Assembly: GCA_005879585.1 (NCBI GenBank)
Contig: VBKG01000342.1
Location: forward strand, 1 to 46,906
Length of the DNA: 46,906 bases
From: Deltaproteobacteria bacterium
GTDB lineage: Bacteria > Desulfobacterota > Binatia > DP-6
Reading direction: 5' to 3'
The translations under genes were made by a program, and so were the position numbers. The notes below the pieces were generated by a model, which made no database searches, was not told the DNA's origin, and saw only the letters and a program-made list of their open reading frames with translations. This document shows, in pieces, positions 2 to 36,367 of the stretch (positions are counted from its first letter, which is position 1; each line of letters opens with the position of its first letter).

Positions 2-169
2 CGGGGCACCGTCGTCGGGTTCGCCACCTTGAGGGTGGACTTCGTCCAGGACACCTCCGATCCCAAGTACATCGACACCACCGTGGTCCCCAACAAGACC
101 GGGTCGACCGATCCGAACACGATCGCCGAGTGCTTCGGCACCGACTGCCGCTCCTTCCTCGTCAATTGA
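2..169 (+). CDS. TadG-like Flp pilus-assembly protein, C-terminal fragment (cut by window edge)
   Basis: An open frame enters from the left edge and ends with TGA at 167-169, giving about 55 C-terminal residues. It contains GFATLRVDF and a late Cys pair (AECFGTDC). The same layout, GFATFVMD then a CAKC pair close to the stop, ends the TadG-like gene at 7061-8008, so I read this as its paralogue. TadG-like proteins are membrane-anchored, mostly extracytoplasmic components of tight-adherence pili. The N-terminal membrane anchor lies outside the window, so the family call rests only on similarity to the downstream copy. Confidence 0.5.
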   Translation, partial: RGTVVGFATLRVDFVQDTSDPKYIDTTVVPNKTGSTDPNTIAECFGTDCRSFLVN

Positions 170-183
170 GCCCGAGGATCGGC

Positions 184-657
184 ATGACACGACGGCTGCT
201 GGCAGCGACGTTCCTGATCGGCTTCGCCTCGCAGGCGGACGCAATGATGCTCTGTACGGGGAAGCACGGGACCGGAACCCTGAGGATGCGCGAGACGTGC
301 TCGAGCCATGAGATGCAGGTCGATCCCATGGAGCTCGGGTTGCAGGGGCCGCCGGGCGACCCGGGCGAGCCGGGACCTCCCGGCGACCCCGGGTCCCCGG
401 GCGACCCCGGATCGCAGGGCGATCCCGGACCGCAGGGCGACCCGGGAGCGTCCGGTCTTGGGAGCGCGGCGCCGTTCGTCTGTGTGAAGGCGAAGCTCCC
501 GGCGCTGTCGACCGCCAGCGGCGACAGCGTCTGCTCGGACCTGCAGATGTTCTGCGTCGCCGAGTTCCTGAACGACACCAAGACCGGCCTCGTTCATCCG
601 TGCGGGGCGCCGGGGGACGTCTTCCCCAACGCCGACGTCCTCTGCTGCCACTTCTAG
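184..657 (+). CDS. Small secreted collagen-like (Gly-X-Y repeat) protein
   Basis: 157 residues if started at ATG 184. An upstream in-frame ATG at 130 would overlap the preceding gene, and only the 184 start puts a signal peptide first (MTRRLLAATFLIGFASQADA). The mature part has a short Cys-containing head, then about 36 residues of uninterrupted collagen-type triplets (GPP-GDP-GEP and GDP repeats, roughly residues 59-95). A C-terminal domain with several Cys ends in CCHF. Collagen triplets form trimeric stalks in bacterial surface proteins. The C-terminal Cys domain could be the trimerising or binding head, which is inference. It starts 14 bp after the TadG-like fragment, so co-transcription is likely. 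Function is unknown. Confidence 0.75.
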   Translation: MTRRLLAATFLIGFASQADAMMLCTGKHGTGTLRMRETCSSHEMQVDPMELGLQGPPGDPGEPGPPGDPGSPGDPGSQGDPGPQGDPGASGLGSAAPFVCVKAKLPALSTASGDSVCSDLQMFCVAEFLNDTKTGLVHPCGAPGDVFPNADVLCCHF

Positions 658-27288: not shown

Positions 27289-27326
27289 GGGGAGCGCTAT
27301 CGATGGCGCCGCTGGCGTTACGCCCC

Positions 27327-29732
27327 TTACGCCGCGGGCAGATCGAGGACGAAGCGGGCGCCGTGCGGGACCGCGGCGTCGAGCGCGATGGTGCCGCCGT
27401 GGCGCTCGATGATCTTCCGCACGACGGCGAGGCCGACGCCGGTTCCCGTCGACTTCGTCGTCATGAAGAGCCCGAAGACGCGCTGGCGCATCTCCGGGGG
27501 CACGCCGGGGCCCGTGTCGGCGAGCTCCACACGCACGCGCCCGGCGCCGTTGCCGGATGCCGCGGCGCTGATCGCGATCCGGCCGCCCGGCCCCATCGCC
27601 TCGATCGCGTTGACGACCAGCTCCTGGATCGCCTGACCGAGGTGGGCGGGGTCGGCCCGTACGAGCGGCAGGTCCGGCGGGACATCGAGGTCGACGGTCA
27701 CACCGCCGGCCTCGAGCCTCGACGCGAGGGTCCGCAGCAACGCCTCGATCAGCGACGCCAGGTGCGTCGGCTCGACGTGCGGCTCGAACGGCCGCGTGAA
27801 GTCGAGGATGCCGCGGACGTGCGCCTCGAGCTTGTCCACCTCTACCAGCACGTCCTGCAGGTTCTCGTGCACCGGCTCGGTCGCCGGGACTTGCTCGAGG
27901 CCGAGCTGGGCGGCGAGCCGGATGCCGGCGAGCGGGTTGCGGATGCCGTGCGCCACTCCCGCGGACAGCTCGCCGATCGCGGCCAGGTGCTCGGCGCGGG
28001 CGAGGCTCTCCTGCGCGTCGCGGAGTTGCTCGAGGGCCGCGGCGTTGGCGAGCGCGATCGCGGTCTGGTTGGCGAGCGTGGTGAGGACGTCGACGTCGTC
28101 GGCCGAGAAGGGCCGGCCGGACGACTTGCCGCCCACCGCGAGGAGGCCCGCCGGCTGGCCGCGGCGCAGGAGCGGGACGAGCAGCACGGCGTCGAGCGCG
28201 TCGAAGAGGCTCCGGAGCGCGTCGCGGTTCGGCCGGAGACGTGCCGCCTCCTCCACCTCGTCGCGCGAAAGTACGCCGCCGCGTGCCTCGAACGCGGCGA
28301 GGCCGGGATCGCTCGCCGGGAGCGAGCGTCGCGTGGCGCGGCCACCGCGGCGTACGAACACGTCGTTCTCCCGCTCCCAGACCGTCGCCCCGTCGATGAA
28401 CAGCACCTCCCGGAGCGCGGTGAGGAGGTGCTCCACGATCGCGCGGCGGTCGAGAAGTGTCGTCATGCGCTCGCTCGCGTGCGCGACCGTGTCCTTGTAG
28501 TCGACCCGGCCGCGGTAGAAGAGCCGGTCGATGGCACGCTGGATGCGGTCCCGCAGCGGAACGGCGGTCGCGAGCGCCACGAGCACGAACGCGATCGGAA
28601 AGACCGGGCTCCGCGACGACACGAGGCCGGCGGCGAGCCCGTCCGCCAGCAGCAGCGCCCCGGCATATGCGAGCGAGACGAGCGCCGTGATCACGGAGTA
28701 GACGAGCGCCTGCTTCACGAACCGGTCGGCCTCGAACAGGTCGTGGCGGGCGATCGCGTAGCCGATCGAGAGCGGGAAGAGGAAGCCCGTCAACGTCAGC
28801 AGGCTGAACGACAGCCGTTGGCCGAAGAGGAAGACCGCGAGGACGCCCAGTACCGGCACCAGGAACGCGACGACGGCGCCCGTGAGGACGACGCGCGCGC
28901 GGCGGCGTGCGAGCGGCGTGCGGCCGCGGAAAGCCGCGACGGCGACCGACGCCATGCCGGCCAGCGATGCCGCCGCGATCGCCAGGAAGACGATCGCGTT
29001 CAGCACGTAGAGGCCCTCGTACCAGCGCCGGAACAACCACAGCTGGGCCATCCCGACCGCGAAGCCGACGGCGTACAGCCATCCGAGGGGGCGGCCGCTT
29101 CGCCGGACGGGCGGCCGCGGCTCGGGGACCGTCAGCGCCAGGTGCAGGATCGCGGCCGGTGCGAGCCCTTCCAGGAGCAGCGCGAGCCCGTGGAAGCGGT
29201 CGGCGGTGAACAGGTCGAGGTCGAGGAGCAGGTAGAGACCCCAGACGACGCCGAACGCGAGGAGGGCGCGACTCTGTCGCGACTCCGGCTTCAGGTAGAA
29301 GACGGCGAGCCCGACCGCGAGGAACGCAACGCCGTTCAGCGCGTACACGCCGAGCGTCGCGACCCAGTCCCGCAGGGTGAACACCATGGAGCGCACGCTG
29401 CGACGCTCCTGGCCGCCGGGCCCTTCGAAGACGAACTCGTGCAGCGTGCCGGGGCGTGCGGCGCGGACCCGCGTCTCGACGTCGTGCCGCGACGTCACCA
29501 CATCGCCGTCGACGCTCACCACCCGCGAGCGGAAGGGCACGCCGGCCACCGTGCCGGTCCAGCCGGGACGGCCGAGCGGGACGACGAACAGGTTGTCCCA
29601 CACGACGAAGCCGGCGAAGGTGTGTCCGACCTCGGCGAGCGAGCCCACCAGGGCGACCGCGGAAAGCGCGACGCTCGCCAGTGAGAGGACGAGGAACAGC
29701 ACAGCGTCCGCGCGGCGCGGGAACCGGCTCAT
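27327..29732 (-). CDS. Membrane sensor histidine kinase, copy 2
   Basis: 801 residues from ATG 29732. Same plan as the kinase at 12226-14721: TM1, a PDZ-like extracytoplasmic segment (AGVPFRSRVVSVDGDVV), about seven more TM helices (IARHDLFEADRFVKQALVYS at the end), a GAF-like region (about 410-540), HisKA and HATPase (VVNAIEA, DTGPGV, GTGVGLAV). The H-box reads GVAHGIRNP: the phospho-acceptor His is present but the usual following Glu/Asp is Gly. Its ATG overlaps the stop of the radical SAM gene (TGATG), so they are co-translated. The adjacent lone receiver (32744-33112) or regulator 2 could be its partner, which is inference. Confidence 0.9.
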   Translation of the reverse strand: MSRFPRRADAVLFLVLSLASVALSAVALVGSLAEVGHTFAGFVVWDNLFVVPLGRPGWTGTVAGVPFRSRVVSVDGDVVTSRHDVETRVRAARPGTLHEFVFEGPGGQERRSVRSMVFTLRDWVATLGVYALNGVAFLAVGLAVFYLKPESRQSRALLAFGVVWGLYLLLDLDLFTADRFHGLALLLEGLAPAAILHLALTVPEPRPPVRRSGRPLGWLYAVGFAVGMAQLWLFRRWYEGLYVLNAIVFLAIAAASLAGMASVAVAAFRGRTPLARRRARVVLTGAVVAFLVPVLGVLAVFLFGQRLSFSLLTLTGFLFPLSIGYAIARHDLFEADRFVKQALVYSVITALVSLAYAGALLLADGLAAGLVSSRSPVFPIAFVLVALATAVPLRDRIQRAIDRLFYRGRVDYKDTVAHASERMTTLLDRRAIVEHLLTALREVLFIDGATVWERENDVFVRRGGRATRRSLPASDPGLAAFEARGGVLSRDEVEEAARLRPNRDALRSLFDALDAVLLVPLLRRGQPAGLLAVGGKSSGRPFSADDVDVLTTLANQTAIALANAAALEQLRDAQESLARAEHLAAIGELSAGVAHGIRNPLAGIRLAAQLGLEQVPATEPVHENLQDVLVEVDKLEAHVRGILDFTRPFEPHVEPTHLASLIEALLRTLASRLEAGGVTVDLDVPPDLPLVRADPAHLGQAIQELVVNAIEAMGPGGRIAISAAASGNGAGRVRVELADTGPGVPPEMRQRVFGLFMTTKSTGTGVGLAVVRKIIERHGGTIALDAAVPHGARFVLDLPAA

Positions 29733-34686: not shown

Positions 34687-34899
34687 ATGGTCGAGAAGAC
34701 GATTCATCTGACGGGCACGTCCACCAACTCGATCGAGGACGCCGTCGGACTTGCGGTGACGCGTGCCGCGACGACGATCGACGGCATCCGGCAGGCGGAG
34801 ATCGCGGGCGTGACCGCACTCGTCGAGGACGGCACGGTGACCGCGTGGCGTGTCCAGCTGCGGGTCACGTTCGCCGTTCAGGAGCGCCTTCACGAGTAG
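34687..34899 (+). CDS. Dodecin family flavin-binding protein
   Basis: 70 residues with an excellent ribosome site (AAGGAGGT, 34669-34676). The sequence MVEKTIHLTGTSTNSIEDAV and the TVTAWRVQLRVTF strand with the flavin-stacking Trp are typical of dodecins. These are dodecameric hollow spheres that store or buffer riboflavin/FMN/FAD and protect against flavin-driven oxidation. The MBL-fold gene starts one base after its stop. Confidence 0.95.
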   Translation: MVEKTIHLTGTSTNSIEDAVGLAVTRAATTIDGIRQAEIAGVTALVEDGTVTAWRVQLRVTFAVQERLHE

Positions 34900-34900
34900 C

Positions 34901-35881
34901 ATGCCCGAGGCGGCGAAGGCGCGGGAGATCCTCGACGGGGTCGTGCAGGTGTACCTGCCGCTCCCCATGCGCCCGAGCATCGTGAACGTGTACCTCGTAC
35001 GCGCCGGCGACCGCTGGACGCTCATCGACACGGGCATGAACACCGAGGACAGCGTCGCCGCCTTCCGCGGCGCCCTCGACGAGATCGGCATCGACCCGCA
35101 CGCGATCGGCCGCCTCGTCGCGACGCACCATCACGTCGACCACTTCGGCACGTCGGGGCCGTATCGCGAGCTGGCGCACGCCGAGGTCTACACCCACCCG
35201 CTCGAGGCCCAGGCCGCGGTGGCGATCGGCCAGATCCCGGCGGAGAACACCGCGTACCTCGCCCGCCACGGTGTGCCCGTCGTGCCGCCCGACCGCCGTC
35301 TACCGCCGCCGAGCCGCTTCTTCGGCACCTGGTACGCGCCCGCCGAGCCCGACCACTTGATCGCGGACGAGGACGAGCTGCCGCTGGGCGACGGGCGCTC
35401 GCTCCAGGTCGTGTGGACGCCCGGCCACACGCCGGGCCACTGCTGCCTCCTCCTCCGGCCCGATGGCGTGCTGTTCGTCGGCGACCATCTCCTGCCGAAG
35501 ATCACGCCGCACGTCGGTCTCTGGCCGGGCGGTCCCGAGAACCCGCTCGGCGACTTCCTCGGCTCGCACGAGAAGGTGCAGAAGCTCGATGCGAAGCTCG
35601 TCTGTCCGGCGCACGGCGCCGTCTACGAGGACCACCGCCGCCGCGCCCGGCAGCTGATCGACTTCCACCGCGTCCGGAAGCTCGCGATGCTCGAGCTGAT
35701 CCGGCGCCGGCCACTCACCGCGTACGAGGTGGCGCTCGACGCCTTCGCCATCGCCGCCGACAACCGCTTCCAGGTGTTCATGGCGACGGTCGAGACGCTC
35801 GCCCACCTGGAGCTGCTGCGGCGCGAGGGCCGCGCGCTTCGCCACGAGCAGGACGGCGTCGTCCGCTACCAGGGACGCTGA
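34901..35881 (+). CDS. MBL-fold metallo-hydrolase (LACTB2/glyoxalase II-like)
   Basis: 326 residues from ATG 34901. The metal site is complete: ATHHHVDHFG (HxHxDH), His in WTPGHTPGHC, Asp in LFVGDHLLP, and His in VCPAHGAVY. The C-terminal 80 residues form a winged-helix-like tail (AMLELIRRRPLTAYEV) as in LACTB2-like proteins. Likely a hydrolase of thioesters, lactones or phosphodiesters; the substrate is not readable. It forms an operon with dodecin. The peroxiredoxin follows after 42 bp. Confidence 0.92.
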   Translation: MPEAAKAREILDGVVQVYLPLPMRPSIVNVYLVRAGDRWTLIDTGMNTEDSVAAFRGALDEIGIDPHAIGRLVATHHHVDHFGTSGPYRELAHAEVYTHPLEAQAAVAIGQIPAENTAYLARHGVPVVPPDRRLPPPSRFFGTWYAPAEPDHLIADEDELPLGDGRSLQVVWTPGHTPGHCCLLLRPDGVLFVGDHLLPKITPHVGLWPGGPENPLGDFLGSHEKVQKLDAKLVCPAHGAVYEDHRRRARQLIDFHRVRKLAMLELIRRRPLTAYEVALDAFAIAADNRFQVFMATVETLAHLELLRREGRALRHEQDGVVRYQGR

Positions 35882-35923: not shown

Positions 35924-36367
35924 ATGCTGAAGGCCGGCGATCCCGCCCCCGAGTTCACGGCGACGTCGTGCGACGGCCGCCGGATCAGCCTCGCGGACTT
36001 CCGCGGGAAGAAGGTGCTGCTCTGGTTCTTCCCGAAGGCCGACACCCCCGGCTGAACGGCCGAGGGCATCGGATTCCGTGATCGAATCCGCGATTTCGAA
36101 GCGCTGAACACCGTGATCCTCGGCGCGAGCTTCGACGGGCCCGAGGACAACGCGGCTTTCGCGAAGAAGTTCGGCTTCCCCTTCCCACTCCTCTGCGACA
36201 CCGACAAGAGCCTCGCGATCAAGTACGGCGCCGCCGACGACGCGTCGGCGCGAAGCGCGCGCCGCGTCTCGTGCCTGATCGACGAGGAGGGACGCGTGCT
36301 GAAGCACTATCCGCAGGTCGCGGCGCGCGAGCACGTGGGCGAGGTCCTGCAGGACCTGGCCGGCTGA
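35924..36367 (+). CDS. Selenocysteine-containing peroxiredoxin (Bcp/PrxQ type), in-frame TGA read as Sec44
   Basis: 147 residues if TGA 36053-36055 is decoded as selenocysteine. The frame before it (MLKAGDPAPEFTATSCDGRR..., LLWFFPKADTPG) and after it (TAEGIGFRDRIRDFEAL..., VILGASFDGPEDNAAFAKKF) continues without shift. TGA stands exactly where Bcp/PrxQ proteins have the peroxidatic Cys (FYPKADTPGCT). The second Cys five residues later is absent. C91 (FPLLCDTD) could be the resolving Cys, as in some PrxQ proteins. A hairpin with its loop starting 21 nt after the TGA fits a bacterial SECIS. Reduces H2O2 or organic hydroperoxides in the cytosol. The alternative, a single nonsense mutation, is less likely. 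Confidence 0.85.
36070..36090 (+). promoter_or_regulatory. Bacterial SECIS-like hairpin
   Basis: CGGATTC (36070-36076) pairs perfectly with GAATCCG (36084-36090) around the 7-nt loop CGTGATC, which contains the GU expected for SelB recognition. The loop begins 21 nt after the TGA, inside the range known for bacterial SECIS elements. Confidence 0.65.

Follow-up and report, generated by a model that had tools for sequence, protein, structure and literature searches.

A probable selenocysteine-containing peroxiredoxin of the PrxQ/Bcp type in a member of the Binatia, with a putative bSECIS hairpin and cysteine-containing relatives

The gene at positions 35924-36367 (forward strand) of the window, that is, of the whole 46,906-nucleotide stretch of DNA analyzed in this study, very probably codes for a PrxQ/Bcp-type peroxiredoxin that is a selenoprotein, with selenocysteine (Sec) at the peroxidatic position (probability about 0.94). 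The predicted product has 147 residues with Sec at residue 44, which is read from the TGA at 36053-36055, and the gene also ends with a TGA codon (36365-36367). These are the only two stops in the frame, in agreement with the preliminary description of this DNA, which had reported the frame to be open through the first TGA.

The read-through frame and its neighborhood

The read-through product matches the AhpC-TSA domain (PF00578) over residues 5-125 with an E-value of 2.4e-31. The query used for the domain, genome, NCBIfam, and plasmid searches (P0001) carries Cys instead of Sec and, as the terminal TGA was translated too, is longer by one residue at its end. Sec is found in the context PKADTPG-U-TAEG with the motif T41-P-G-U44, and the protein thus combines the TxxU motif and the AhpC/TSA domain that mark the Sec-containing peroxiredoxins of COG1225 (judged here via PF00578). 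T41 and R114 are invariant in a 50-row alignment. The Cys residues of the protein are located at positions 16, 91, and 117, while residue 49 (U+5) is Ile; the absence of a second Cys five residues downstream had been noticed before.

In the program-made list of open reading frames, this frame is represented only by a fragment of 84 codons (36113-36367), which is the truncation that had been anticipated for standard gene calling. Wherever TGA is taken for a stop, gene calling will cut such genes short, as it does with the window gene, and lineages may therefore look devoid of an antioxidant selenoenzyme that is very likely present.

The gene is preceded on the same strand by two conserved neighbors, a dodecin gene (34687-34899; PF07311, E-value 3.7e-19), also recognized in the preliminary description, and a gene for a metallo-beta-lactamase-fold protein (34850-35881; PF00753, E-value 6.4e-27) with a program-made start, the true start of which may lie later. 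Both genes are also found beside the peroxiredoxin gene in two relatives, G001 and G006. Elsewhere in the window, ARAGORN predicts a tRNA-Gly(ccc) of 86 nt on the reverse strand (28270-28355), which overlaps a long open reading frame on the opposite strand (27303-29684) and is possibly a false call.

Exchange of selenocysteine and cysteine among related genes

A homologue was found in all 145 whole genomes searched (the own genome and its relatives), and a single scan of genome_contigs yielded 41 loci. We read codon 44 in 111 loci (71 plus 40) and found TGA in 69 of them (53 plus 16) and TGC or TGT in the other 42 (18 plus 24), with no other codon occurring at this site. These counts are not prevalences, since 18 of the 40 loci were chosen because the genome search showed a TGA there and the 111 loci include duplicates, such as the pairs L019/L047 and L022/L048. 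The in-frame TGA is aligned with the catalytic Cys of homologues. The preliminary description had placed the TGA at the peroxidatic Cys of Bcp/PrxQ, as the domain match and the 42 Cys-codon loci confirm, and had named Cys/Sec pairs at residue 44 of relatives as support for its reading; such pairs are now at hand. No further internal stop was detected in any of the 111 frames, and the G001 orthologue, which is 84% identical to the window protein, has TGA at codon 44 as well.

According to the record titles, the Sec forms come from Rokubacteria, Acidobacteria, Planctomycetota, Chloroflexi, Proteobacteria, and Deltaproteobacteria. A quick tree was built from 104 proteins (65 Sec and 39 Cys forms, with residue 44 masked; L086, L087, L105, L047, L048, and identical proteins left out). 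It requires the Sec/Cys label to change 13 times, and starred branches force at least five of these changes. The family offers a natural series of Sec and Cys orthologues at one locus, in which Sec/Cys exchange and bSECIS evolution become directly testable. The search of plasmid records gave 85 matches, all below 60% identity and, among the five matches listed, none above 40.4%.

The own genome also encodes two ordinary Cys-containing Bcp paralogues with Cys49 (L129 on contig C148 and L130 on contig C530), so the Sec enzyme is not the sole PrxQ there. In three other genomes a Sec form and a Cys paralogue lie near each other on the tree, namely G110 (L022 and L113), G124 (L028 and L110), and G136 (L023 and L109).

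Selenocysteine machinery

The own genome (5.28 Mb, 99.2% complete, 625 contigs) contains selA, selB, selC, and selD, the last as two pieces at contig edges, which substantiates the earlier proposal that this lineage has the Sec machinery. The tRNA-Sec scores 74.5 bits and is called SeC(tca) by ARAGORN, SelB reaches 358.7 bits (cut-off 242.25), and SelA, encoded directly upstream of selB on the same strand, 571.9 bits (cut-off 267.9). For SelD (cut-off 125), the N-terminal piece at the edge of contig C136 scores 121.5 bits in the genome search and 127.7 bits as a longer frame, and the C-terminal piece at the edge of contig C436 stays below the cut-off with 40.4 bits in the genome search and 39.3 bits in a second scoring. 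The N-terminal piece (L088, positions 2-334, reverse strand) has an in-frame TGA of its own in the context RLTQRAKTSG-U-AGK, which we take to be the catalytic position, with the second Cys of the usual SelD motif apparently replaced by Gly. SelD is thus very likely a second selenoprotein of this genome, as predicted from the position of its TGA.

A TGA-44 peroxiredoxin is present in at least 41 of the 145 genomes among the matches listed, and some of the other 104 may therefore hold further Sec forms. The number results from 43 genomes with a TGA in the genome search minus G024 and G031, which were given one TGA each (presumably the terminal one was counted) and have Cys44 genes; both were left out of the Sec count. 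SelB was found at E<=1e-60 in 40 of these 41 genomes versus 78 of the 104 others (Fisher p 0.0006, relatedness not controlled), and tRNA-Sec of at least 60 bits in 35 of the 41. Four genomes (G008, G085, G103, and G112) have SelB and yielded no tRNA-Sec of at least 60 bits. In the TGA-44 genome G126, no SelB at E<=1e-60 and no strong tRNA-Sec came to light. The TGA-44 Bcp of that genome (L107, contig C534) has Cys49, and a foreign contig or an assembly gap is possible.

The family cut-off for tRNA-Sec is not specific: it was passed by five of 14 control genomes, among them Caulobacter, Thermus, and Thermotoga, which do not belong to the two of 14 that passed the SelB cut-off. We did not count matches of 47-57 bits as tRNA-Sec, since scores in this range recur as extra copies beside a strong match and controls without SelB above its own cut-off pass that of the tRNA-Sec family. 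Three genomes (G097, G101, and G093) have three or four matches each over this cut-off, some of them weak. G001 seemed to be devoid of tRNA-Sec until the gene of the own genome was compared with it: two G001 contigs match this gene, over bases 1-69 and 70-96.

A putative bSECIS hairpin in two layouts

Downstream of the TGA, the window gene contains a putative bSECIS hairpin at 36070-36090 (forward strand), in which 36070-36076 pair with 36084-36090 around the loop CGUGAUC (36077-36083). The stem begins 14 nt after the TGA and the loop 21 nt after it. The preliminary description had reported a perfect 7-bp hairpin with a GU-containing loop starting after 21 nt; the hairpin is real, whereas the distance of 21 nt applies to the loop and not to the stem. 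The published bSECIS consensus calls for a G at either the first or the second loop position, frequently with G or U next to it, and for a loop 16-37 nt after the UGA, and the window hairpin agrees with this description. By folding energy the hairpin is ordinary. Dinucleotide shuffles gave z-scores of +0.41 (36053-36100), -0.49 (36056-36115), -1.07 (36040-36110), and +0.05 (after the terminal TGA), the best fold of 36053-36100 is a different one, the synonymous-shuffle z-score is +0.23, and none of these shuffles gave energy-only support for a SECIS. Given the protein, a stem of this layout with at least six pairs has an 8% chance of occurring. The support for the window hairpin is comparative, not energetic.

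Across the family, two layouts overlie the same codons, and both fit the published consensus. In type I, which most Sec genes other than those of the window's type have, positions 10-17 after the TGA pair with 21-28, and the loop is GUU in most cases. In type II, the layout of the window gene, positions 15-21 pair with 29-35 around a 7-nt loop, which is CGUGAUC in 9 of 11 genes. Under a strict criterion (at least six unbroken pairs next to the loop), a hairpin is found in 46 of 63 distinct Sec genes (35 type I and 11 type II; 3.6 expected from protein-keeping shuffles) and in none of 40 Cys genes (0.6 expected). In reading these counts, it should be borne in mind that the two layouts were derived from the very sequences counted and that possession of the helix was the reason for picking the 11 type II genes. 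A looser criterion (at least five pairs, type I) is satisfied by 59 of 64 Sec genes and also by 9 of 40 Cys genes, which indicates that coding constraint partly meets it. Segments with identical letters were counted once in the hairpin, codon, and folding counts, and L086 was left out of the strict hairpin and Gly50 codon counts.

In the 11 type II genes, 98.7% of the helix cells are paired and 10 cells, in three of the seven pairs, are changed on both sides, the percentage and the cell count each being reached by 0 of 500 shuffles. When the partner strand is slid by one to three columns, 0 to 54.5% of cells stay paired and none is changed on both sides. Of five whole-structure measures, two were not above the shuffles, namely the number of pairs changed on both sides (148/500) and of pair types (464/500). 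Outside type II, all 52 Sec genes use GGG for Gly50, the third base of this codon providing the G of the GUU loop, compared with a GGG share of 13.5% among Gly codons elsewhere in Sec genes. The mean synonymous-shuffle z-score is -1.39 for 65 Sec genes versus -0.14 for 40 Cys genes (Mann-Whitney p 3e-8, relatedness not controlled). With independent pairs, about three of five follow the association of the strict hairpin with Sec and none opposes it, five pairs being too few for significance; when the criterion is loosened, one pair goes against the association in a few of the random pairings.

G006, which belongs to the window's family, offers a natural control. Its orthologue is 81% identical to the window protein and has Cys44 and Ser91; five of the seven type II pairs are left, and the helix is broken near the loop. 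A search for SelB (at E<=1e-60) and tRNA-Sec in G006 found neither, and because this genome is only 80% complete, their absence is likely rather than certain. This Cys gene with a seemingly decayed hairpin and the Sec gene of the window form a Cys/Sec pair, whichever way the exchange went.

Alternative readings of the TGA codon

A Cys codon changed to TGA by mutation in a pseudogene, or misread as TGA through a sequencing or assembly error, is conceivable for a fragmented assembly of 625 contigs, the more so as a single base change separates TGA from TGC or TGT. Such an accident would hardly have struck codon 44 in 69 of the 111 loci, which belong to many genomes and, going by the record titles, to several phyla, and have left Cys in all the rest and no other internal stop in any of the 111 frames; the closely similar G001 orthologue shares the TGA, and the strict hairpin occurs only in TGA genes. 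We consider this explanation highly improbable. A lineage-wide reading of TGA as Cys or Trp, or a general read-through of stops, would likewise leave the frame open without any role for selenium, and we give it a similarly minute chance: the gene itself terminates with TGA, its genome contains tRNA-Sec, SelA, SelB, and the pieces of SelD, and the TGA genes bear a specific hairpin. Pseudogene, sequencing error, and code reassignment were thus rejected on the conserved TGA, the sel genes, the hairpin, and the terminal TGA.

The presence of all four sel genes, the covariation in the hairpin, and the Cys/Sec pairs lead us to infer that SelB carrying Sec-tRNA-Sec would bind the hairpin (36070-36090) in the mRNA and decode the UGA at 36053-36055 as Sec44.

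Proposed catalysis and the resolving cysteine

Peroxide reduction at the peroxidatic residue is established peroxiredoxin chemistry. With the conserved PxxxTxxU loop and Arg114 keeping it in place, Sec44 of the window protein would reduce the peroxide and be converted to a selenenic acid. An AlphaFold2 model with Cys for Sec (pLDDT 97.2) places residue 44 in the first turn of a helix (residues 42-53) and Cys91 at the end of a strand (residues 89-91). Residue 49 (Cp+5) is the resolving Cys position of two-Cys Bcp, and the window protein lacks this mark of a two-Cys PrxQ/Bcp; it has Cys91 without Cys49 or Cys104. Since Cys49 is missing, Cys91 (codon 36194-36196, forward strand), which the preliminary description had already suggested, is the most likely resolving candidate, its role being plausible from its conservation, and oxidised Sec44 may form an intramolecular selenenylsulfide with it that would then be reduced by a thioredoxin-like donor. 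We propose this step tentatively, at slightly less than even odds.

Of the 65 Sec forms, 51 have Cys91, 40 have Cys104, and 22 have Cys49; among the 39 Cys forms, the numbers are 11, 20, and 12, respectively (L086, L087, L105, and identical proteins left out). A tree-controlled test of the association between Cys91 and Sec leans the same way and is not significant. About an even chance is left to a variant that differs in the resolving step only, in which Sec44 is inserted and resolved by an external thiol, Cys117, or Cys16 instead of Cys91. It draws on four Sec forms out of 65 that lack all of Cys49, Cys91, and Cys104 (as do 12 of the 39 Cys forms), which imply that such an internal partner is not universal, and on Cys117 (codon 36272-36274, forward strand), which occurs in only 3 of 104 rows (L017, L018, and L019), all of the window's family. 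The other 61 Sec forms, each with at least one of these three cysteines, and the enrichment of Cys91 in Sec forms argue for Cys91 instead.

For a clade of Sec-PrxQ, we put forward a wider scenario, which we regard as possible and hold with less confidence than the role of Cys91 itself. The resolving Cys would have moved from U+5 to U+47 (Cys91, at the strand end and often with Cys104), and the SECIS would have switched several times between two mutually exclusive hairpins (GUU triloop and CGUGAUC loop) over the same codons, so that RNA pairing would also steer the choice of amino acids. The hairpin layout needs at least four changes among the Sec rows of the tree. In the 11 type II genes, Leu51 occurs only with Ala55 (two genes), and Phe51 with Ile55 (seven), Ala55 (one), or Thr55 (one).

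Comparison with known systems

The window protein shares its fold with the Bcp/PrxQ thioredoxin-dependent peroxidases (PRK09437; 5enu, 3drn, and the Xylella and Xanthomonas PrxQ), with Z-scores of 23.3-25.5. The top structural match is a Bcp chain (Z 25.5), rows within 1 being tied, and AhpE and two-Cys peroxiredoxins follow at 22-23.3. Both sides have the TPG-C/U motif and Arg114 in common, whereas the window protein has Sec for Cys and Ile for the Cp+5 resolving Cys, and it scores 100.8 bits against PRK09437 (cut-off 140). The PrxU of Eubacterium acidaminophilum, reportedly described in a 2001 paper, is a Sec-containing peroxiredoxin like the window protein. The NCBIfam equivalog peroxi_PrxU (NF040737) is, by its name, presumably the family of this PrxU; with 36.3 bits against a cut-off of 270, the window protein does not belong to it, nor does any other of the 14 NCBIfam models listed match this protein above its cut-off.

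Selenoprotein peroxiredoxins have been catalogued before: PMC9312934 gives them as a family under COG1225 (Bcp) with the motif TxxU, peroxiredoxins with PF00578 and TxxU appear in PMC13188914, 43 sequences were counted in the Sargasso Sea set (PMC1088965), and 12 selenoproteins in PMC1794560. The window protein has in common with the catalogued Sec peroxiredoxins (COG1225/PF00578; PMC9312934, PMC13188914) the domain, Sec at the peroxidatic position in TxxU, and a bSECIS in the coding region, and differs, when set beside the family description, in having no Cys at U+5 while keeping Cys91. Since Sec peroxiredoxins with COG1225 and TxxU are already published, the window gene joins a known family and is not of a new kind. 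In the open PMC literature we did not meet the Sec-Cys geometry with Cys91, which is not to claim that Cys91 or the two-hairpin pattern is absent from print. Less expected than the family membership are the missing Cys49, the retention of Cys91 mostly in Sec forms, and the two SECIS layouts over the same codons. The relatives of the window gene, in poorly studied bacteria, thus show cysteines and an RNA signal changing over evolution within a known family of selenoproteins.
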